Shown: piece by piece, positions 38,502-48,856 of the stretch
Position numbering within the stretch: position 1 is the stretch's first letter
Layout: each line of letters starts with the position of its first letter
Source: Halomonas sp. CUBES01
Lineage (GTDB): Bacteria; Pseudomonadota; Gammaproteobacteria; Pseudomonadales; Halomonadaceae
Length of the DNA stretch: 64,000 bases
Direction of reading: 5' to 3'
Assembly (NCBI RefSeq): GCF_020991005.1
Contig: NZ_JAJLLW010000003.1
Location: 124,001-188,000, forward strand
Position numbers and translations under genes: made by a program
The notes under the pieces: generated by a model
Database searches by the model: none
Seen by the model: the letters and a program-made list of their open reading frames with translations, nothing else
What the model was told of the DNA's origin: nothing

Positions 38502-39842
38502 ATGGCTCAAGCGTTCGACGCATCAGCCCAGCAGGCACTGCTCATCCAGCGTGCCGAAAGTGCCTTGGCGATGGCTAAACGGATGGGCGCCGACGCGGCC
38601 GAGGTCGGCGCCAGCGTTGACCAGGGGATCGGCGTCAGCGTCCGTCAGGGGGAAGTGGAAACGGTAGAGCTTTCCCGCGATCAAGGCATTGCCATTACCG
38701 TCTATGTCGGTCAGCGCAAGGGCAGCGCTTCGTCGACGGATGCCGGTGAAGCCTCGCTGCTGGCCACCGTTGAGAAAGCCCTGGCGATTGCCCGCTACAC
38801 AGGAGAGGACGCCGCGGCAGGCCTGGCCGATGCGGCCTTGATGGCCACCGACCTGCCGGATTTGAAGGTTCATCATCCCTGGGCGCTCACCACCGATCAG
38901 GCCATTGAGCTGGCCCTGGCCTGCGAACAGGCGGGACGCGACGTGGCGGGGATTACCCAGTCGGACGGGGCGTCGCTGTCCAGCGGTGAAGGCGTGCGCG
39001 TGTATGCCAACAGCCACGGTTTTGTCGGCACTCAGAAAGGCAGCCGCCACTCGCTGTCCTGCATGCTGATCGCCGAGGACGCTCAAGGCATGCAGCGCGA
39101 CATGGATTACACCTCGGCACGGGATCCCGCAGAGCTAGCCGACCCGGCGATGGTGGGGCGCGAAGCGGCGCGGCGGACACTGCGGCGGTTGGGTGCCAAA
39201 CGGCCGCCCACAGGCACGTATCCGGTGCTGTTCGACCCCAGTCTGGCAAGTGGTCTGGTAGGCCATCTGATGGGTGCCCTGGCGGGCGGTGCGCTTTACC
39301 GTCAGGCGTCTTTCCTGTGTGATCGGCTCAACACACCGCTGTTTCCCGATTGGTTCAGCCTCGAGGAGCGGCCAATGGAGGTCGGCGCGACGGCCAGCTC
39401 GCCCTTTGACGGCGAAGGCGTGCAAACCCGCGACAACCGCTTTATCGACCGTGGCCGGATTGCGAGCTACATGCTGTCGTCCTACAGCGCTCGTCGCTTG
39501 AACATGACCACCACCGGTAATGCAGGCGGTGCCCGCAATATGCGCATTACCGCGCCGTTAACCCGTCATGCATCGCTGCTGTCGCAAATGGGCACCGGGG
39601 TCTGGGTGACCGAGCTGATGGGGCAGGGCATCAATGGCGTGACCGGCGACTACTCGCGCGGCGCTGCTGGGTTCTGGGTAGAAGACGGCGTGGTGCAATA
39701 CCCTATCGAGGAATTCACCATCGCCGGTAACCTGGAGCGCATGTTCGGGGGCCTGGTGGGCGTCGGCGATGACATCGACCGCCGGGGCAGTATTCATTCC
39801 GGCAGCTGGCTTATCGATGGCATGACCGTCGCCGGCAGCTAG
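38502..39842 (+). CDS. pmbA: PmbA/TldE, metalloprotease partner subunit
   Basis: PmbA (TldE) forms the heterodimeric protease with TldD but lacks the zinc motif. The 446-residue protein starts MAQAFDASAQQALLIQRAESAL; conserved blocks include EVETVELSRDQGIAITVYVGQRKGSASS near the N terminus and RRLNMTTTGNAGGARN. AAGGAG with 6 nt spacing precedes the ATG. The stop codon lies at the end of the first copy of a four-fold 8 bp tandem repeat, so repeat copy number does not change the protein. Confidence 0.95.
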   Translation: MAQAFDASAQQALLIQRAESALAMAKRMGADAAEVGASVDQGIGVSVRQGEVETVELSRDQGIAITVYVGQRKGSASSTDAGEASLLATVEKALAIARYTGEDAAAGLADAALMATDLPDLKVHHPWALTTDQAIELALACEQAGRDVAGITQSDGASLSSGEGVRVYANSHGFVGTQKGSRHSLSCMLIAEDAQGMQRDMDYTSARDPAELADPAMVGREAARRTLRRLGAKRPPTGTYPVLFDPSLASGLVGHLMGALAGGALYRQASFLCDRLNTPLFPDWFSLEERPMEVGATASSPFDGEGVQTRDNRFIDRGRIASYMLSSYSARRLNMTTTGNAGGARNMRITAPLTRHASLLSQMGTGVWVTELMGQGINGVTGDYSRGAAGFWVEDGVVQYPIEEFTIAGNLERMFGGLVGVGDDIDRRGSIHSGSWLIDGMTVAGS

Positions 39843-39865
39843 GCAGCTAGGCAGCTAGGCAGCTA
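39834..39865. repeat. Tandem repeat, 4 x GGCAGCTA
   Basis: Four perfect copies of GGCAGCTA run from 39834 to 39865. The pmbA stop TAG spans the junction of copies 1 and 2 (39840-39842). The array then lies 19 bp from the end of the convergent ptsO gene. Each copy contains AGCT, and each junction reads CTAG. Confidence 0.95.
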
Positions 39866-39884
39866 GCGCAGGGGTCTTTAAGGC

Positions 39885-40154
39885 TTACTTGTCCTCATCG
39901 AAGCGCGCGTCGAACAGCGCCTGGATCGCCTCCAGCGCCTGTTCGGCGTCATCGCCCTCGGCTCGGATGCAAAGCTCGGTGCCGCAGGGCGCCGCCAGCA
40001 TCAGGAGGGCCATGATATTGGCCGCATCGGCTTCCTGCTGCTGATTCACGACCCGTACGCTGGCGTTGAACTGCTGGCAGCACTGTACGAGTTTGGTGGC
40101 AGCCCGCGCGTGAAGCCCGCGCTGGTTGGTGAGGGTAAGTGTACGTTCTGGCAC
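39885..40154 (-). CDS. ptsO: NPr, nitrogen-related HPr-like phosphocarrier
   Basis: NPr accepts phosphate from EI-Ntr and passes it to EIIA-Ntr (PtsN) in the nitrogen-related phosphotransferase system. The 89-residue protein has the active histidine at residue 15 in RGLHARAATK. The second half, with EADAANIMALLMLAA, matches NPr rather than sugar HPr, which has a serine phosphorylation site there. It is the last gene of the minus-strand rpoN-hpf-ptsN-rapZ-ptsO run. The gene for EI-Ntr is not in this window. Confidence 0.93.
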   Translation of the reverse strand: MPERTLTLTNQRGLHARAATKLVQCCQQFNASVRVVNQQQEADAANIMALLMLAAPCGTELCIRAEGDDAEQALEAIQALFDARFDEDK

Positions 40155-40222
40155 CCTGGTTCCTTTTGGCTATTAGGGGTGTCGCGGTGGATAATGGCCC
40201 GGCTTCCGCCAGGCGTAAACGT

Positions 40223-41104
40223 TTAGTGCGCAGCATTGACCGTGTACTGCAAGCCCAGCTCTCGGTGGCGTAGCTGCACTTCATCCATATGCCGGACGAG
40301 GCGCTGGGCCAGCTGTTCCACCATGTAAACCGAGCGATGCTGCCCGCCGGTACAGCCGATTGCCACGGTCATGTAGCTGCGCTGGCTGTTCTGGTACTCA
40401 GGCAGCCAGCGTTCAAGCCATGCCTGAATATCGTTGGCCATGGCGTCGACCAGCGGGTAGTTGCCCAGAAAGGCAATGATATCGGCATCGCGACCGGTGG
40501 ACGAGCGCAGCGAGGGATCCCAGTAGGGATTGGGCAGGCAGCGCACATCGAAGACAATGTCCGCATCGAGGGGAACGCCGCGCTTGTAGCCAAAGGACTC
40601 AAAAGTCAGCGTAAGCTGGTCGCGCCGCTGGTGGGCCACCTGGTCGGTGATGCGTCGGCGCAGGTCGTGGGCCGAAAGCCGAGACGTATCGATGGTCAGA
40701 TCGGCAAGGTCGCGTATTTGGTGCAGCGTCTGCTCTTCCTGATCGATGGCTTCTTCAAGCGTCAGCGAGCTGTTGCGAGTCAGCGGATGTCGCCGGCGGG
40801 TGGCCGAGTAGCGTTCCAGCAGTATGCGGGCATCGGTGGTCAGATACACGATCTGACACTTGATAGTGCGTTGACGCAGTGCCTCGAGAAGCTTGGGCAG
40901 CTCGGCGAGGGCCGCAGGCAGGTTGCGCGCATCAATGCTCACCGCCAGATGGGTACGTCCCCCTTGTTCACGCAGCTCATCAATCAGCGCGTCCAGAAGC
41001 ATGGCTGGCAGGTTATCAATGGCGTAATAGCCTAGATCTTCCAGCGCCTGCAAGGCAATGGATTTGCCTGACCCGGAGCGGCCACTAATGATGACGAGTT
41101 GCAT
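40223..41104 (-). CDS. rapZ: RapZ, GlcN6P-sensing RNase adapter protein
   Basis: In E. coli RapZ binds glucosamine 6-phosphate and delivers the sRNA GlmZ to RNase E. The 293-residue protein has a P-loop GRSGSGKS at 8-15, a Walker B region, and the C-terminal metabolite-binding domain with FESFGYKRGVPLDAD, VRCLPNPYWDP and the GCTGGQHRSVYMVEQLA motif. The extreme C terminus differs from E. coli: after RHREL it reads GLQYTVNAAH and lacks the basic cluster (K270, K281, R282, K283) needed there for RNA binding. It lies between ptsN and ptsO as in most gammaproteobacteria. Confidence 0.93.
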   Translation of the reverse strand: MQLVIISGRSGSGKSIALQALEDLGYYAIDNLPAMLLDALIDELREQGGRTHLAVSIDARNLPAALAELPKLLEALRQRTIKCQIVYLTTDARILLERYSATRRRHPLTRNSSLTLEEAIDQEEQTLHQIRDLADLTIDTSRLSAHDLRRRITDQVAHQRRDQLTLTFESFGYKRGVPLDADIVFDVRCLPNPYWDPSLRSSTGRDADIIAFLGNYPLVDAMANDIQAWLERWLPEYQNSQRSYMTVAIGCTGGQHRSVYMVEQLAQRLVRHMDEVQLRHRELGLQYTVNAAH

Positions 41105-41195
41105 GGAAAGCTCTCTTGCTTGCGCTCAAGCGACGTGGGTAATCAGCCAGATGGCGATGTTAACGCATTGTGTGCCCGCCAGGCTCGCCAGCGGG

Positions 41196-41669
41196 TTACT
41201 GGCTGTTAGCCTGGTCGCGTATCTTGGCCGTGATGAGATCCAGCAGCTCCCGTTGGCTCTCGGTTTTGCGAAGCTGCTGGCGCGTGTCGGCATCGTTCAT
41301 GATCGAGGCGACCTGACCAAGCAGAGCCAGATGGGTATCATCGGCTTCTTCGGGCACCAGCAGGACAAACACCAGATCGACCGGATCGCCGTCGATGGCG
41401 TCGAAATCCACCGCTTCGTTGAGCTTTAAAAAGCCTGCGATAGGCGATTCGCAATGCGGGCTGCGGGCATGGGGAATGGCAACGCCGTTGCCGATCCCCG
41501 TGCTGCCCAGGCGCTCTCGACCGATCAGCCGGCTGAACACTTCCTGGCTGTCGAGACTGGGGATATTTTGCGCGATAAAGGTGCTGAAAAACTCCAGCAC
41601 CCGTTTTTTGCTGCCCCCGGGCACGTCGTAAAGTACGCGCTCCGGGGGGAGGATAGTGGCTAACGTCAT
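41196..41669 (-). CDS. ptsN: PtsN, EIIA-Ntr of the nitrogen PTS
   Basis: EIIA-Ntr is the output protein of the nitrogen PTS; depending on phosphorylation it controls potassium transport, the stringent response and other targets. The 157-residue protein has the active-site H67 in AIPHARSPH and the family blocks RLGSTGIGNGVAIP and VDLVFVLLVPEE. The ATG is 4 nt downstream of the hpf stop, with no clear ribosome binding site, so translational coupling with hpf is likely. An in-frame extension upstream is the hpf gene in another frame and is not used. Confidence 0.95.
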   Translation of the reverse strand: MTLATILPPERVLYDVPGGSKKRVLEFFSTFIAQNIPSLDSQEVFSRLIGRERLGSTGIGNGVAIPHARSPHCESPIAGFLKLNEAVDFDAIDGDPVDLVFVLLVPEEADDTHLALLGQVASIMNDADTRQQLRKTESQRELLDLITAKIRDQANSQ

Positions 41670-41673
41670 TGAA

Positions 41674-41982
41674 TTAACGCACGCCTGCGCCCTGGGCGCG
41701 GGCTTGTGCTTTTTCCTTGTGCTTGACGAGTTGCCGATCAATTTTGTCCGCCAGTGCATCAATGGCTGCGTACATGTCATTGTCGAGGGCTTCGGCGTGC
41801 AAGTCGGCACCGGCGGCGTGCAGCGTACAGGCCGCCTGTTGACGCTCTTTCTCGACCGAGAGCGTGACCTGCACGGTGGTGATGTTGTCGTAATGGCGCT
41901 CAACGCGTTCCAGCTTTTCGTTGACATAGTCACGCAAGGCGTCAGTCAGTTCTACATGATGACCGGTAATATTGACTTGCAT
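41674..41982 (-). CDS. hpf: Short ribosome hibernation promoting factor HPF
   Basis: Short HPF binds the 30S decoding centre and converts 90S dimers to inactive 100S ribosomes in stationary phase. The 102-residue protein starts MQVNITGHHVELTDALRDYV and has the beta-alpha-beta fold with EKLERVERHY and YAAIDALADKIDRQL; it lacks the long C-terminal dimerisation domain. AAGGAG with about 8 nt spacing precedes the ATG. It is directly downstream of rpoN (86 bp) as in Pseudomonas and enterobacteria. Confidence 0.95.
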   Translation of the reverse strand: MQVNITGHHVELTDALRDYVNEKLERVERHYDNITTVQVTLSVEKERQQAACTLHAAGADLHAEALDNDMYAAIDALADKIDRQLVKHKEKAQARAQGAGVR

Positions 41983-42015
41983 TGACGTACTCCTTATCCG
42001 TCGGACTGTCCTTCG

Positions 42016-42042
42016 ATTGTAACCCTTTTTGCCGTTAAGCAA
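42016..42042 (-). promoter_or_regulatory. Possible sigma70 promoter for hpf-ptsN
   Basis: On the minus strand TTGCTT (42042-42037) or the overlapping TTTGCT, then TACAAT (42021-42016), with 15-16 bp spacing. This would give hpf its own promoter downstream of rpoN. The -10 is good, the -35 and spacing are weak. Confidence 0.35.
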
Positions 42043-42068
42043 AGCCCTTGTGACGAGTTTCCGTCTTT

Positions 42069-43478
42069 CTAACGCAAACGGCGTCGTTCGCTGGAGGACG
42101 GGATACCCATGCCTTCGCGATATTTGGCCACGGTACGCCGCGCCACGTGGACACCGGCGTCTTCGAGCAGGGTGACAAGGCGGCTGTCTGACAGGGGTTT
42201 GCCGGGCGGCTCTTCCTGGATCAGCTTCTTCAGCCGTGCCCGGATCGCGGTGCTCGAATGGCTGTCGCCGTCCTGGCCGCTGATCTGGCTGGAAAAGAAG
42301 TATTTAAGCTCGAAAATGCCCCGCGGCGTGTGGATGAACTTCTGGGTGGTGACCCGAGAAATCGTCGATTCGTGCATCTCGACCGCCTCGGCGATGTCGG
42401 CCAGGATCAGCGGCTTCATGGCTTCTTCACCCCGTTCCAGAAAGTCGATCTGGCGGGTGACGATTTCGCGGCCGACGCGTAGCAGGGTGTCGTTGCGGCT
42501 GGACAGGCTCTTGATCAGCCAGCGGGCTTCCTGAAGATGGTCCTTGAGAAACTGGTTGTCCTGGCTCTTGTCGGCGCGTTTGATCAGGCTGGCGTAATCG
42601 GGCTGAATCCGGAGTTTGGGGAGCGCTTCCGGGTTGAGCTCCAGGTGCCAGCCCTCGCTATCGTGACGAACCACCAGGTCGGGAATCACGTAGCTGTCAT
42701 CGGTGACGGTGTACTCGCTGCCGGGACGCGGATCCAGGCTCCTGATCAGTTGGATGACCTCATCGAGCTGCGCCTCGTCCAGGCCGAGCCGCCGTTTGAG
42801 CAGGCGCTGATCATTCTTGCTCAGGGCTTCCAGGAACTGGCGAACCAGTCGCCGGGCAGGCATCAGCAGCGGGGTGTCGTCGGGCAGGGCGGCAAGCTGC
42901 AGCATCAGGCATTCGCGCAGGTCGCGAGCGAACACGCCGGTGGGCTCGAACTGCTGGAGTCGCATGAGGATGCTTTCGACCTCGCGCTGGCTGAGGCCTT
43001 CCACGCCCTGGGCGCGCAACCCCTCGCGGATATCGTTGAGCGGTTGGGTCAAGTAGCCGTTCGTATCCAGGGCGTCGATCAGGCTTTCGGCGACCAGCTG
43101 CTCGCGGCGGCTCAAATCGGTCATGGCGAGCTGCCACAGAAGATGGCCGTGGAGGCTTTGCCCGGCCGCCTGGCGTTCAAAGTCCGGGCCCTCACTGCTC
43201 GAGCTGCCGCTGCCTGCCATGTCTTGGTAGGTATCCGACCAGTCGCTGTCGACGGAGAGCTCCGTGGGGATGCTGTCGGCCCACTCGGTTTCCTCGGGCT
43301 CGCTGGTGGCCTGCTCGCTGAACTCGTCTTCCTGCTCGAGCATCGGGTTGGCGTCGAGGGCCTGCTGAATTTCCTGGCGTAAATCGAGCGTGGATAGCTG
43401 CAGCAGGGCAATGGCCTGCTGCAGCTGGGGTGTCATGGTGAGCTGGGTGCCGATCCGCAGTTGAAGAGAAGCTTTCAT
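42069..43478 (-). CDS. rpoN: RNA polymerase sigma factor sigma54 (RpoN)
   Basis: Sigma54 directs RNA polymerase to -24/-12 promoters that require an AAA+ activator. The 469-residue protein has the glutamine- and leucine-rich region I (MKASLQLRIGTQLTMTPQLQQAIALLQ), an acidic region II (about 50-105), the core-binding region, a helix-turn-helix, and the RpoN box ARRTVAKYRE at 446-455 that reads the -24 element. ATG 43478 matches the family start; ATG 43484 is two codons upstream. It lies between lptB and hpf, and two tandem sigma54-type promoter sequences occupy the gap upstream. Confidence 0.97.
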   Translation of the reverse strand: MKASLQLRIGTQLTMTPQLQQAIALLQLSTLDLRQEIQQALDANPMLEQEDEFSEQATSEPEETEWADSIPTELSVDSDWSDTYQDMAGSGSSSSEGPDFERQAAGQSLHGHLLWQLAMTDLSRREQLVAESLIDALDTNGYLTQPLNDIREGLRAQGVEGLSQREVESILMRLQQFEPTGVFARDLRECLMLQLAALPDDTPLLMPARRLVRQFLEALSKNDQRLLKRRLGLDEAQLDEVIQLIRSLDPRPGSEYTVTDDSYVIPDLVVRHDSEGWHLELNPEALPKLRIQPDYASLIKRADKSQDNQFLKDHLQEARWLIKSLSSRNDTLLRVGREIVTRQIDFLERGEEAMKPLILADIAEAVEMHESTISRVTTQKFIHTPRGIFELKYFFSSQISGQDGDSHSSTAIRARLKKLIQEEPPGKPLSDSRLVTLLEDAGVHVARRTVAKYREGMGIPSSSERRRLR

Positions 43479-43544
43479 GACCATCTGAGAACCACTCGTT
43501 ATCGGAAAGCATCCACCCTAGTGTGTGTTGTGTTTTGGTGCAAG

Positions 43545-43560
43545 TGCAATAAGTATGCCA
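43545..43560 (-). promoter_or_regulatory. Sigma54 (-24/-12) promoter sequence, proximal, upstream of rpoN
   Basis: Read on the minus strand: TGGCATACTTATTGCA. This fits the sigma54 consensus TGGCAYR-N4-TTGCW at every defined position, with GG and GC exactly one helical turn apart. The -12 GC lies about 67 bp upstream of the rpoN ATG. It is the second of two copies spaced 18 bp. Confidence 0.75.
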
Positions 43561-43562
43561 CA

Positions 43563-43578
43563 GGCAATAAATATGCCA
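43563..43578 (-). promoter_or_regulatory. Sigma54 (-24/-12) promoter sequence, distal, upstream of rpoN
   Basis: Read on the minus strand: TGGCATATTTATTGCC. It matches the sigma54 consensus TGGCAYR-N4-TTGCW except for the last base, and differs from the proximal copy at two of 16 positions. It starts 10 bp past the lptB stop, exactly 18 bp upstream of the proximal copy. Confidence 0.65.
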
Positions 43579-43587
43579 TTGACAGCT

Positions 43588-44334
43588 TTACAGACGGAAA
43601 TCAGCACCTAGGTAAACGTCGCGCACTTCCTGATTGTCAAGAATAGCGCTTGGCGTGCCGCTGGCGATGATATGGCCGTCGCCCACGATGTAGGCCACGT
43701 CGCAGATATCCAGCGTCTCGCGCACGTTGTGGTCGGTAATCAGCACACCGATGTCACGTGCCTTCAAAGCGCGAATGATCGACTTGATATCGCCGACAGA
43801 AATAGGGTCGACGCCGGCGAAGGGCTCGTCAAGCAGGATGAACGCGGGCTCGGTGGCCAGCGACCGGGCAATCTCGACGCGGCGGCGCTCGCCGCCGGAC
43901 AGGCTCATGCCCATGTTATCGCGGATATGGGTGATGTGGAAATCTTCCAGCAGTGCTTCCAGGCGTGCTTCGCGACCGGCGCGGTCGAGGTTCTTGCGCG
44001 TTTGAAGGATTGCCATGATGTTGTCGGCGACGGTCAGCTTGCGAAAGATCGACGCCTCCTGGGGGAGGTAGCCAATGCCCGCCTTGGCGCGCTCGTGCAT
44101 GGGCGCGCGGGAAAGGTCGAGGCTGTCGATGGCGACGCTGCCCGCGTCGGCCTTGACCAGGCCGACGATCATGTAGAACGAGGTGGTTTTGCCCGCGCCA
44201 TTGGGGCCTAGCAACCCCACGATGCTGCCCTGGGATATATCCAGGTTGATGTCTTTGACCACGCGCCGGCGCTTGTAGCTTTTGGCCAGGTGGCGGGCGT
44301 GTAGCGTGCGGGTGGCAGGGTCGGCGGCGGCCAT
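43588..44334 (-). CDS. lptB: LPS export ABC transporter ATPase LptB
   Basis: LptB dimer powers LptFGC extraction of lipopolysaccharide from the inner membrane. The 248-residue cytosolic protein has Walker A GPNGAGKT at 43-50, signature motif [16 protein letters not shown], Walker [13 protein letters not shown] and the switch histidine in [19 protein letters not shown] precedes the ATG on the minus strand. It follows lptA by 10 bp in the kdsD-kdsC-lptC-lptA-lptB series; lptF and lptG are not in the window. Confidence 0.97.
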
Positions 44335-44344
44335 CGGGCTCTCC

Positions 44345-44839
44345 TTACTCTTCGGGCTGCAGCGTCATGCGAATTCGCTGCGGTTCTTGGTTCTCCACGT
44401 CGGAACGCGCCTGGACGACCTCCCGGTCGATGAAGTATTCCAGCCGCCCGCCGGTGAAACGGTCGCCTTGCTGGATGATCTCGGCCTGGTCGATCAACTC
44501 CACGCGGCGCTCGGCGACGTGATAGATCACCCGGCGTCCCCAGCCTTCCAGCGGGCCTTCCTGATTCTCGGGTTGCTGACGCAAGTAGGCGCGCTCGCCC
44601 AGAGCGGTGGCACGCGACAGCTCGCCTGCCTCGTTGCGCTGAATTTCGACTGTGTCGCCCTTGATCAGCATATCGCCCTGGCGAACTTCCACGTCACCGG
44701 TATACACCGCCGTGCCTGCGCGCTGGTCGAGATCCAGCCGGTCGGCTTCAACCTCAACCGGTTGCTGGTGATTGTCGGCCGTGGCGTAAAGCGGAACCAG
44801 GCAGACGGCGGCCAGGGCCGTGTAAATAAGCGCTTTCAT
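44345..44839 (-). CDS. lptA: LPS transport periplasmic protein LptA
   Basis: LptA forms the beta-jellyroll bridge carrying LPS across the periplasm from LptC to LptD. The 164-residue precursor has a signal peptide (cleavage likely after ATA, leaving [11 protein letters not shown]), and the OstA-type repeats [21 protein letters not shown] and [15 protein letters not shown]. Length is slightly below the E. coli protein. It is 3 bp from lptC, indicating operon expression. Confidence 0.94.
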
Positions 44840-44842
44840 GTG

Positions 44843-45424
44843 TTATTCCTGTCCAGGTTGCGTCTCGGGAGGGTGGTAGCCTTGCACATTCTCTTCAAGG
44901 CGCACTTTCTCGTCGTTGAGCCATGCATCCATCCGTTGCGCCGTCATGCGCTGGGGTGGCTGCTGGAGGAGTACGGGGGTATCGCTCCAGGCGTGGGCGG
45001 TCTTGCCATCATAGTGCAGGACATCCGTGTCCAGCTGCCAGCCTTCTTCGGGCGCTATCAGCCGCGCATTGCCCGAGAGCGTCAGCGCTTGCGCGTTGGT
45101 GTCGAGCGTACCTACCTCGGCGGTGGCGTTCCACACCCGGCGTTCGCTGTCATACAGCGTGGCGCGGGGCGTTTCCGCCTGGGTGGAGGCCGTCTGGGGG
45201 GTGTGCACCAGGCGCGGCGTGGTCAGTCCCTGCTGGATGTTGCCCTGCGCGTCGAACAGCGTCAGCTCGGCGTTGTGCAGCACATGGCCGGGCTCTTCCG
45301 CCCGCGCGTCGGGATCGGGTGTAACGGTTCGCGGGCCGCCGGGATCCAGCCATACCAGCAGGCCGCCGAGCGCCAGTACGATCAGGGCGAGGCCCAGGCG
45401 CGTGCGTAGTCGCTTCAGCATCAT
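44843..45424 (-). CDS. lptC: LPS export protein LptC
   Basis: LptC is a bitopic inner-membrane protein that receives LPS from LptBFG and hands it to LptA. The 193-residue protein has a basic start (MMLKRLRTR), one transmembrane helix (about 10-25) and a periplasmic jellyroll domain with the family pattern of a hydrophobic groove (HNAELTLFDAQGNIQQGLT, LSGNARLIAPEEGWQLDTDVL). Either Met 1 or Met 2 may be the start. It lies 3 bp after kdsC. Confidence 0.92.
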   Translation of the reverse strand: MMLKRLRTRLGLALIVLALGGLLVWLDPGGPRTVTPDPDARAEEPGHVLHNAELTLFDAQGNIQQGLTTPRLVHTPQTASTQAETPRATLYDSERRVWNATAEVGTLDTNAQALTLSGNARLIAPEEGWQLDTDVLHYDGKTAHAWSDTPVLLQQPPQRMTAQRMDAWLNDEKVRLEENVQGYHPPETQPGQE

Positions 45425-45427
45425 GCC

Positions 45428-45964
45428 TCAGCCGTGTAGGTAAGTATCGACGACCGCGCCCCAGTGGCCCTGGGCATCCAGCATCGCGTCGCACACTTCA
45501 CGCACGGCCCCGTGGCCACCCAGGCGCTCGGTAACCCAATCGGCATGGGTGTGCATGTAGTCGGGGGCGTTGGGCACGGTGATGCCTACGCCCGAGCGCT
45601 TGATGCTGGCCAGGTCGGGCAGGTCGTCGCCGCAGTAGGCCACCTGGGAAAGTTCGATGTCCAGGCGCTGGCAGAGCCCGCGCAGGGTGGCCAGTTTGTC
45701 CTCGCAGCCCTGGTAGACGTGAGCAATGCCCAGGGCGGCGGCACGTTGGCTGACCATGGGCGAATCGCGTCCGGTAATCAGGGCGACGGAAATGCCGGCG
45801 CGCTTGAGCAGCTTGAGCCCGTGGCCATCCTGGGTGTGAAAGGCCTTGATCTCGACGCCGTCGGCCTGAAAGTAAAGCCGACCGTCGGTCAGGACGCCAT
45901 CGACATCCAGGGCAAATAAGCGCACGCGGCGGAGTCGGTCGAGTAGGTCAGCGGAAAGGGTCAT
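45428..45964 (-). CDS. kdsC: KDO-8-phosphate phosphatase KdsC
   Basis: KdsC removes phosphate from 3-deoxy-D-manno-octulosonate 8-phosphate to give KDO for LPS inner core. The 178-residue HAD-family protein has the catalytic aspartates D20 and D22 in FALDVDGVLTDG, ALITGRDS, and the metal-binding YCGDDLPDL motif. It is a C0-type HAD tetramer family without a large cap. It lies 17 bp downstream of kdsD, the preceding enzyme gene of the same pathway. Confidence 0.95.
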   Translation of the reverse strand: MTLSADLLDRLRRVRLFALDVDGVLTDGRLYFQADGVEIKAFHTQDGHGLKLLKRAGISVALITGRDSPMVSQRAAALGIAHVYQGCEDKLATLRGLCQRLDIELSQVAYCGDDLPDLASIKRSGVGITVPNAPDYMHTHADWVTERLGGHGAVREVCDAMLDAQGHWGAVVDTYLHG

Positions 45965-45981
45965 TGAGCCTCCGAATTCAG

Positions 45982-46965
45982 TTAAATGACGCCGCTGGCA
46001 AGCAGGTCATGCATGTGTAGCGCCCCTACGGGGCGCTGCTGTTCATCCACTACCGCCAGCGCGGTGATGCGATTGTCTTCCATGATGCGCACGGCTTCGG
46101 CGGCCAGCAGGTCGGGAGAGATGCGCTTGCCGGGGCGAGTCATCACCTCGTCCACCCGTACGTCGCGCAAGTCATGGACGCTATCCAGGGTGCGGCGCAG
46201 GTCGCCATCGGTGTACACGCCGGCCAGTTGGCCGTCCGGGGCGACCACGCAGGTGAATCCCAGTCCCTGGCGGGTGATTTCCAGTAACGCATCGCGCAGC
46301 GGGCTGCCCAGCGGTACCTGGGGCAGGCGGTCGCCTTCATGCATCAGGTCGCGTACGCGCAGCAGCAGGCGCCGGCCCAGGCTGCCGCCGGGGTGCGACA
46401 GGGCAAAGTCTTCGGCGGTGAAGCCGCGTGCTTCCAGCAGGGCGACGGCGAGTGCATCGCCGAGCGCGAGCGCGGCTGTGGTCGAGCTTGTCGGCGCCAG
46501 GTCTAGCGGGCAGGCTTCCCGGTCGACGCTGCTGTTCAGGTGGGCGTTTGCGTGTTGCGCAAGGGTCGATGTGGGCCTGCCCGTCATGCTGATCAGCGGC
46601 GTGCCGAGCCGTTTGAGCAGCGGCAGCAATGCCGTGACCTCGGCGGTTTCGCCGGAGTTGGAAAGCGCGATCACCACGTCGCTGCGGGTGATCATGCCAA
46701 GGTCGCCATGGCTGGCCTCACCGGGGTGAACAAAAAAAGCCGGTGAGCCGGTGCTTGCAAGCGTCGCGGCGATCTTGCCGGCAATGTGGCCCGATTTGCC
46801 CATGCCGGTGACCACCACGCGGCCCTGACAGTCCAGAATCAGCTCGCAGGCATGGTCGAAGTGCGCATCCAGCTTGGCGGCCAGGCCGGCAATGGCGGCC
46901 TGCTCGATGTTCAGCGTGCGTAATGCGCTTTGACGAAAGGGCGTAGTAGCAGTGGTCGCGGGCAT
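45982..46965 (-). CDS. kdsD: D-arabinose-5-phosphate isomerase KdsD
   Basis: Converts ribulose 5-phosphate to arabinose 5-phosphate, the first step toward KDO. The 327-residue protein has an SIS domain (about 35-190, GMGKSGHIAGKIAATLASTG and SNSGET) and two CBS domains (about 205-327), ending with MHDLLASGVI. It is the first gene of the minus-strand LPS run and divergent from mlaF across 269 bp. That gap contains an inverted repeat TTGCCC/GGGCAA at 47031-47058 but no promoter I can name with confidence. Confidence 0.95.
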   Translation of the reverse strand: MPATTATTPFRQSALRTLNIEQAAIAGLAAKLDAHFDHACELILDCQGRVVVTGMGKSGHIAGKIAATLASTGSPAFFVHPGEASHGDLGMITRSDVVIALSNSGETAEVTALLPLLKRLGTPLISMTGRPTSTLAQHANAHLNSSVDREACPLDLAPTSSTTAALALGDALAVALLEARGFTAEDFALSHPGGSLGRRLLLRVRDLMHEGDRLPQVPLGSPLRDALLEITRQGLGFTCVVAPDGQLAGVYTDGDLRRTLDSVHDLRDVRVDEVMTRPGKRISPDLLAAEAVRIMEDNRITALAVVDEQQRPVGALHMHDLLASGVI

Positions 46966-47030
46966 GGGTGTTGGCGTGGCTCGTTAAAAATGACAAACAG
47001 GGTGCAAGAGTAACATTGACGGCGAGCAGT

Positions 47031-47058
47031 TTGCCCTATCGTTTTGTATCGTGGGCAA
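47031..47058. repeat. Inverted repeat in the kdsD-mlaF divergent gap
   Basis: TTGCCC (47031-47036) and GGGCAA (47053-47058) are reverse complements around 16 bp, in which TATCG occurs on both sides. It sits between two divergent envelope operons and could be a binding site or an RNA hairpin. The evidence is only the symmetry. Confidence 0.35.
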
Positions 47059-47234
47059 CCTATACTCGCTTGTCGTTGTCGGGGTGGGTTAGAATACGTT
47101 GTTCGATAATCCTTTTTAACCACTGTTTTTACGCTGTGTGGAACGAAGCGCCCCCCGCCGCTTGGCGTAAGGCGTTTGCACGGCGCGCCAGCGCTGAGCC
47201 GCCGGCGCATGTCAACCTGAGAGTCGATGGTTCC

Positions 47235-48059
47235 ATGAGCACTGAGCCTTTTATTGAAGTCGAGAACCTGTATTTCTCCCGGGGTGATAGCGAGATCTTT
47301 CGCGGCGTGAACATGATCATTCCTCGCGGCAAAGTGACGGCGATCATGGGGCCAAGCGGAACGGGCAAGACCACGCTGCTGAAGCTTATCGGCGGGCAGC
47401 TGACGCCGGATCAGGGGCGTGTGCTGATCGACGGCGACGACGTTCATCGCCTGTCGCGGAAGGCCTTGTTCGCCCTGCGTAAACGCATGGGCATGCTGTT
47501 CCAAAGCGGAGCGCTGTTCTCGGACCTGGATGTCTATGAAAACGTCGCCTTTCCACTGCGTGTCCACACCGACCTGCCCGATGCAATGATTCGCGACCTG
47601 GTGCTGCTCAAGCTTCAGGCGGTGGGGCTGCGTGGTGCGCGCCATCTGACGCCGGCCGAGCTTTCCGGGGGCATGGCCCGGCGCGTTGCGCTTGCCCGGG
47701 CGGTGGCCCTGGACCCCGAGTTGATTCTCTACGACGAGCCGTTTGTGGGTCAGGATCCCATCTCCATGGGCGTGCTGGTGCAGCTGATCAAGCGGCTCAA
47801 TGAGGCGTTGAGTCTGACCTCGGTGGTAGTCTCCCACGATATCAAGGAGACGCTGACCATCGCGGATTACCTGTACTTTATTTCCGAAGGCCAGGTGGTG
47901 GCGCACGGAACGCCCGCCGACCTCGACGTCAATCAGGATGCGCGGGTGAAGCAGTTCATTCACGGGGAGCCCGACGGGCCTGTTCCCTTCCATTACCCGG
48001 CGTCGGCGTTTTATCCCGATATGTTGGGTGACGCGGTAATTCAGAGGGGTGCCAAATGA
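47235..48059 (+). CDS. mlaF: Phospholipid transport ABC ATPase MlaF
   Basis: MlaF is the ATPase of the MlaFEDB complex that moves phospholipids between inner membrane and MlaC to keep outer-membrane asymmetry. The 274-residue protein has Walker A GPSGTGKT at 39-46, signature [16 protein letters not shown], Walker [14 protein letters not shown] and the switch His in [13 protein letters not shown] 47235 gives the family start [18 protein letters not shown]; the frame is open further upstream but into the intergenic region. The stop overlaps the mlaE start by 4 bp. Confidence 0.95.
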
Positions 48060-48856
48060 CCACCAAACAGGGGACGGTCGTCTCACGCATTACCCGCCTG
48101 GGGCGGCGGGGCTGCGACGTGGTCGAGTCGCTTGGCCGCGCCGGGGTGTTTCTTGCCCAGTCGGCCGTGGGCGTGCCGTCGGCCGAAGGCATTCGGCTGT
48201 GGGTTCGTCAGCTGCATTTTGTCGGTGTGCTGTCGCTGGCGATCGTGCTGGTATCGGGGCTGTTCATCGGCATGGTGCTGGCGCTTCAGGGTTATACCAT
48301 TCTGATCGACTTTGGCGCCGAGGACGCTCTGGGGCAGATGGTGGCGCTGTCGCTGCTGCGCGAGCTGGCCCCGGTGGTCGCCGCGTTGTTGTTTGCCGGT
48401 CGTGCCGGATCGGCGCTTACCGCCGAAATAGGCCTGATGAAAGCCACCGAGCAGTTGACCAGCATGGAAATGATCGGCGTCGATCCCTTGAGGCGGGTGG
48501 TGGCACCACGCTTCTGGGCAGGAGTCGTGGCGCTGCCGATCCTCACCGTGGGGTTTAGCGTAGTGGGTATCTGGGGCGGCTATCTCGTCGGCGTCGAATG
48601 GCTGGGTGTCTTCGAAGGCTCCTACTGGAGCAACATGCAGGCGAGCGTTGGGTTCATCAACGATATCGGCAACGGCATGATCAAAAGCGTCGTGTTTGCG
48701 GTGGTGGTCACCTGGATTGCCGTGTTCCAGGGGTACGACCTGATGCCGACCTCTGAAGGGATTTCCCGGGCTACTACGCGCACGGTCGTCTACTCGTCGC
48801 TTGCGGTGCTGGGGCTTGATTTTATATTAACCGCCGTGATGTTCGGCGGCCTCTGA
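48056..48856 (+). CDS. mlaE: Phospholipid transport permease MlaE
   Basis: Inner-membrane permease of the Mla transporter. The 266-residue protein has an N-terminal amphipathic stretch and five to six hydrophobic segments, with the MlaE-family blocks [39 protein letters not shown] (the coupling region) and [22 protein letters not shown]. The start overlaps mlaF (ATGA). The mlaD gene follows after 16 bp with GGGAG upstream. Confidence 0.95.

Follow-up and report, generated by a model that had tools for sequence, protein, structure and literature searches.

The region in front of rpoN, the gene for sigma54, in Halomonas sp. CUBES01 carries two sequences that resemble binding sites of sigma54 itself. 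This raises the question of whether the pair is more than a coincidence and, if so, what sigma54 would do at its own gene.

Two sigma54-type sites between lptB and rpoN

The window analysed here is a stretch of 64,000 nucleotides, and the features of interest are collected in Table 1. A preliminary description had placed two strings on the minus strand exactly 18 bp apart; both were located and are termed P1 (upstream) and P2 (proximal to rpoN). Scored against TGGCAYR-N4-TTGCW, a consensus taken from that description and from general knowledge, P2 fits at 12 of 12 defined positions and P1 at 11 of 12, the mismatch being the base after the -12 GC (position -11). The GG and GC elements are correctly spaced, 10 bp apart in each site, and in all these respects the description was accurate. 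Its figure of 109 bp for the gap between lptB and rpoN stands when the gap is measured to ATG 43478; to ATG 43484 the gap is 103 bp.

The nearest named relatives of the encoded RpoN are those of an unclassified Halomonas genome (L001, 93%) and of Vreelandella species (88-90%), which places the window in this branch of the Halomonadaceae. The neighbourhood (38502-48856) looks ordinary. From the translations we take it to comprise kdsD, kdsC, lptC, lptA, lptB, rpoN, hpf, ptsN, rapZ, npr and a pmbA-like gene, with presumed mla-type transport genes in divergent orientation.

Table 1. Coordinates of the sites, putative promoter elements and genes in the window.
Feature	Positions	Strand	Remarks
P1, upstream sigma54 -24/-12 site TGGCATATTTATTGCC	43563..43578	minus	predicted from sequence; GG 43577-43576, GC 43565-43564, C at -11 (43563)
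P2, proximal sigma54 -24/-12 site TGGCATACTTATTGCA	43545..43560	minus	predicted from sequence; GG 43559-43558, GC 43547-43546, A at -11 (43545); predicted +1 near 43534
-35-like hexamer TTGCAC	43538..43543	minus	putative; TTGC-to-TTGC distance from P2 6 bp
-10-like hexamer TAGGGT	43515..43520	minus	putative; spacer 17 bp; predicted +1 near 43508
rpoN	42069..43484	minus	sigma54, 471 aa from ATG 43484; second in-frame ATG 43478
lptB (name presumed, from the preliminary description and general knowledge)	43588..44334	minus	upstream of rpoN, same direction; ORF, aligned with relatives

Distribution of the pair among rpoN leaders

For single sites, chance remains an adequate explanation: the window holds 29 matches with at most two mismatches where 35.9 are expected, and the whole genome holds five perfect sites against two for a reversed-pattern control. 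The pair behaves differently. The exact pattern GGCAY-N5-TTGC-N4-GGCAY-N5-TTGC, searched in all 201 Halomonadaceae genomes of the first collection, occurs in 57 of them (the window's own included), once per genome and in all 57 cases within 400 bp upstream of the rpoN start; the reversed-pattern control gave one match in total. When the gap was freed to 0-30, the same 57 pairs were recovered together with 36 other matches spread over 30 other gap lengths (reversed control, six). Of these 36, 33 lie away from rpoN and three (in G004, G068 and G118) are in genomes with no listed rpoN place. A wider search, spanning 275 genomes, added 30 exact pairs in the 74 genomes beyond the first 201, and all 30 stand at rpoN.

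Outside the family, the pair was found in 4 of 372 genomes of the order. Three of the four were inspected and set aside as unrelated coding or repetitive stretches, away from rpoN; the fourth, in G332, belongs to the same genus as G569 and is nearly identical to it in its letters. Shuffling of 145 rpoN leaders 200 times each gave a site in 2420 of 29,000 regions and a tandem in none, against 143 and 60 of the 145 real leaders; the shuffles were mononucleotide and, like those used below for the NtrC- and IHF-like sites and the sigma70-like motif, preserve base composition alone. A chance origin of the exact 18-bp pair is ruled out by its constant position at rpoN, by the gap-length control and by the shuffles, which bears out the earlier judgement that such a tandem at rpoN is unlikely to be accidental. 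In these genomes the exact pair is essentially confined to rpoN.

The 145 leaders, with that of the window among them, represent the better-matching part of the 201 genomes, and distant genera are thinly represented or missing: 51 genomes had no row in the list of RpoN matches and five listed ones were left out. Two RpoN matches each were seen in 7 of 8 g3 genomes, in all six g5 genomes and in G010, G022, G118 and G137, and one in the others. On the coding strand, 143 of the 145 leaders have at least one sigma54 site scoring 9 or more out of 12, whereas only 31 have such a site on the other strand. In 59 of the 143, a further GG-N10-GC is found precisely 18 bp upstream of the proximal site, and no other offset is represented more than five times. 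The preliminary description had made its proposal depend on conservation of these elements in relatives, and such conservation is what was found. The number of tandems varies slightly with the definition: 57 by the exact pattern, 59 when a GG-N10-GC is required at -18 from the rpoN-proximal site and 60 by any pair with a score of at least 9, GG and GC being forced by all three.

Broken down by genus label, g1, to which the window belongs, has the tandem in 12 of 50 leaders, g20 in 33 of 48, g12 in 5 of 5, g6, g9 and g21 in 2 of 2 each, g14 and g23 in their single leaders, and g11 in 1 of 7. The tandem is absent from the leaders of g2 (0/10), g4 (0/3), g7 (0/1) and g19 (0/13). On an RpoN tree of 34 rows, the tandem label needs five changes by parsimony, at least four of which are forced by well-supported branches. 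The simplest reading of this distribution would be one gain followed by several losses, with Chromohalobacter, Salinicola and Modicisalibacter outside. Among 49 named loci outside the family, a coding-strand site is present in 27 and an other-strand site in 11, and no tandem was seen in any of the 49. Single sigma54-like sites precede rpoN in Pseudomonas and Marinobacter loci; in several Marinobacter leaders (L038, L039, L042 and others) the site reads CGGCAAAGAACTTGCT or nearly so and resembles that of the five g20 genomes described below. Within the family, 83 of the 143 leaders with a site have it without the pair, and P1 is therefore not essential.

The -11 letter and the sigma70-like motif

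The two members of the pair differ in the letter at -11. Among 54 distinct pairs, this letter in P1 is G in 28, C in 25 and T in one (G or C in 53), and in P2 it is A in 28, T in 25 and C in one (A or T in 53). The unpaired sites of the 83 other leaders carry A (46) or T (37) without exception. The position equivalent to -11 of P1 in these 83 leaders holds A in 17, C in 47, G in 1 and T in 35 per cent; A or T thus accounts for roughly half, so that P2 itself does not require G or C in P1. The full consensus is matched at 12 of 12 positions by P2 in 50 of the 54 distinct pairs and by 78 of the 83 partnerless sites. The letters of P1 that are not forced by definition are also kept in the 60 paired leaders: the C after GG in all 60, the next A in 58 and each T of TTGC in 59, amid neighbouring letters that vary.

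This split was first noticed in the first set of genomes, and a second set was then fetched with the P1 letter left free. Every one of the 32 pairs in the second set stands before rpoN and carries G or C at -11 of P1, as does each of the 24 distinct pairs that the first set lacked. The 32 comprise 30 exact pairs and two one-mismatch pairs, the latter chosen, because their letters looked right, from 12 one-mismatch rows of new genomes, the other ten being left out. The A or T of P2 in this set is largely forced by the search pattern. At least four of the 32 loci (G637, G605, G587 and G601) apparently coincide with named loci already in the comparison and are new only in lying outside the first count.

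As background, 25 genomes of the same genus gave 172 real against 149 control matches to TGGCAYR-N4-TTGCS and 124 against 82 to TGGCAYR-N4-TTGCW, both excesses including some of the rpoN sites themselves. Sites with A or T are favoured in these genomes, and sites with G or C are also present elsewhere. According to PMC7057263, activator-driven opening of sigma54 promoters starts with a wedge at -12/-11. We infer that G or C at -11 would make P1 a site for binding only.

Downstream of the sigma54 sites lies a conserved motif that resembles a sigma70-type promoter. The preliminary description mentions neither this motif nor the split at -11. The search required TTGC, a spacer of 15-19 and TA...T, 25-60 bp before the ATG, and found TTGC-N17/18-TA...T in 144 of 145 leaders, against 25 of 2900 shuffles. 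The spacer is 17 in 141 leaders and 18 in three, a preference that is helped by the resolution of ties towards common -10s and spacers near 17; all 32 leaders of the second set have the motif with a spacer of 17. The -35-like hexamers are TTGCAC (51), TTGCAA (50), TTGCAT (30) and others (13), and the -10-like hexamers are TAGGGT (88), TAACGT (25) and others (31). The -10-like hexamer of the window is poor, matching TATAAT at three of six positions, and a generic promoter scan of 43450-43700 found no sigma70 promoter.

In 142 of the 145 leaders the -35-like element is preceded by a sigma54 site at a distance of 0-26 bp (TTGC to TTGC). These distances fall into separate classes of 0, 6-7, 12-16 and 25-26 bp, which follow lineage. 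The tandem is present in 11 of 47 leaders at 6-7 bp, in 30 of 38 at 14-16 bp and in 19 of 26 at 25-26 bp; at 0, 12 or 13 bp none of 31 leaders has the pair. Because the distance shifts without loss of the site, proximity, as expected of occlusion, appears to matter rather than a phased contact. P1 is 24 bp from the -35-like element in the window and 43-44 bp from it where P2 is at 25-26 bp. In five g20 genomes, G105, G143, G177, G115 and G139 (loci L190, L171, L194, L201 and L179), the -12 and -35 elements are the same TTGC and overlap directly, with GGCAAG... in three and GGCCCG... in two. In two genomes of the window's own genus, G138 and G146 (loci L206 and L203), no site scores 9 or more and the sigma70-like motif is kept.

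Proposed occlusion of the rpoN promoter and its alternatives

We propose that P1 and P2 probably act together as a sigma54 operator with two sites, through which rpoN is negatively autoregulated by promoter occlusion. In this scheme rpoN would be transcribed from the weak sigma70-type promoter of Table 1. As sigma54 rises, sigma54-RNA polymerase would settle on P2 or P1 in closed complexes that are stable and silent; a closed complex parked beside the -35 would exclude sigma70 polymerase, and the level of sigma54 would be held down. The autoregulation that the preliminary description had suggested from the tandem appears well supported by conservation and by confinement to rpoN. Counting against occlusion are the two leaders of 145 that lack a sigma54 site, the 83 that do without the pair, and the poor -10 together with the negative result of the generic promoter scan.

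The contribution of P1 may take either of two forms. Judging from general footprint sizes, polymerases should not occupy both sites at once at an offset of 18 bp; the pair would therefore raise total occupancy without cooperativity. P1 lies 24 or 43-44 bp from the -35, perhaps too far for its polymerase to interfere with sigma70 polymerase, and P1 could even buffer P2. Since an occupied P1 should leave P2 empty and P1 is the farther of the two from the -35, the upstream site may instead cap repression. Opposite effects of a P1 mutation are expected from added occupancy and from a cap. In the proposed division of labour, A or T at -11 of P2 would keep opening possible should an activator act, and G or C would mark P1 as the bind-only site. 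More tentatively, and as a possibility that we hold with clearly less confidence than occlusion itself, the leader might be a two-position sigma54 switch, in which a bind-only site stands 18 bp upstream of a fire-competent one, a sigma54 site serves as an operator by design and the -11 letter tells operators from promoters. As one polymerase would exclude the other, the pair would then set both the tightness of repression and the scope for override by an activator.

The chief rival to occlusion is that P2 is a true activator-dependent promoter, giving positive autoregulation, for instance under nitrogen limitation, with P1 as a competing bind-only damper. We regard this as unlikely, although the full consensus fit of P2 in 50 of 54 distinct pairs and its A or T at -11 in 53 speak for it, and a 2025 survey takes sigma54 sites at rpoN as a sign of transcription via sigma54 (PMC12316311). 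Moreover, rpoN is upregulated in an ilvA-deleted Halomonas bluephagenesis, described as being in a pseudo-nitrogen-limited state (PMC13101641); this rise is compatible with activation and equally with a release of repression. An enhancer would be expected in the 3' end of lptB, but synonymous conservation there is ordinary among 32 lptB sequences, with no enhancer trace, and NtrC-like and IHF-like sites, the two kinds searched for, show no excess over shuffles in 145 upstream regions; other enhancer-binding proteins have other sites. The conserved sigma70-like motif downstream also argues against this rival. The enhancer-binding protein that the preliminary description had invoked as boosting rpoN is accordingly less favoured. 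That description had alternatively supposed a roadblock against read-through from lptB into rpoN, which the position of the pair directly after the lptB stop codon and the common direction of the two genes would allow. This is improbable in our view: according to PMC4591121, E. coli genes with intragenic sigma54 holoenzyme are unaffected by it, and the sites stay close to the -35-like element, which a roadblock would not need. With a site 0-26 bp from the -35 in 142 of 145 leaders, occlusion of the gene's own promoter offers the simpler target, and read-through blocking has lost favour.

Two further alternatives concern the nature of the repeats. P1 might be left over from an 18-bp tandem duplication and have no function of its own, P2 alone being of importance. 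A duplication would account for the fixed 18 bp, and the tandem label changes at least four times on the tree; drift, on the other hand, would not yield G or C at -11 in 53 of 54 and 24 of 24 distinct pairs, nor does it suit the unforced letters of P1 that are kept amid varying neighbours, and we give a relic little probability. Least credible of all is that a different DNA-binding protein recognises the repeats and that their likeness to sigma54 sites is accidental. P1 forms the palindrome GGCA-N7-TGCC when its -11 letter is C, but the palindrome is broken in the 28 of 54 distinct pairs with G and does not exist in P2 with A or T, and the full consensus fit of most P2 and partnerless sites points to sigma54.

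Negative autoregulation of rpoN has precedents, as the preliminary description had said. In Pseudomonas putida rpoN is negatively autoregulated. The rpoN of R. leguminosarum is likewise stated to be negatively autoregulated (PMC3538637). In both organisms, as proposed here, sigma54 would limit its own gene. The Halomonadaceae differ in having two sites, a fixed distance of 18 bp and opposite -11 letters. In PMC3188799 the gene called negatively autoregulated is prkA, not rpoN. The E. coli sigma54 holoenzyme represses overlapping sigma70 promoters in vitro, as reported for four promoters (argT, chaC, mdfA and patA) in PMC4551910. The likeness to its class I and class II promoters is that here too a sigma54 site would probably lie inside the area covered by sigma70 polymerase, and that a silent closed complex would act as the blocker. 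This is in contrast to the present case in that the four promoters belong to other genes, and tandem sites are not described in the available text. The survey mentioned above (PMC12316311) finds an enrichment of predicted sigma54 sites in front of rpoN in several classes, gamma-Proteobacteria included, and resembles the present findings to that extent; its available text does not deal with the spacing or pairing of sites or with the -11 letters. Sigma54 sites at rpoN and autoregulation of rpoN are thus known from PMC12316311 and PMC3538637. A literature search conducted mostly outside subscription journals brought up one synthetic-circuit paper on tandem, two or overlapping sigma54 sites, and no account of an rpoN-confined fixed tandem with split -11 letters was found in it. 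To that extent the arrangement, which the preliminary description had not seen reported, is apparently new, both in the fixed tandem confined to rpoN and in the split between G/C and A/T at -11.

Halomonas also serves as a production host, and in H. bluephagenesis disruption of sigma54 raises bioplastic content and lowers growth (PMC13101641). From genome-wide correlations it is hard to tell whether evolution has designed sigma54 sites to act as repressor sites. The family provides a natural experiment at the sigma54 gene itself, with two, one or no sites at graded distances from a sigma70-like motif, and with G138 and G146 as natural controls for rpoN expression. The -11 letter separates the two copies, and both autorepression by sigma54 and the role of -11 become directly testable.
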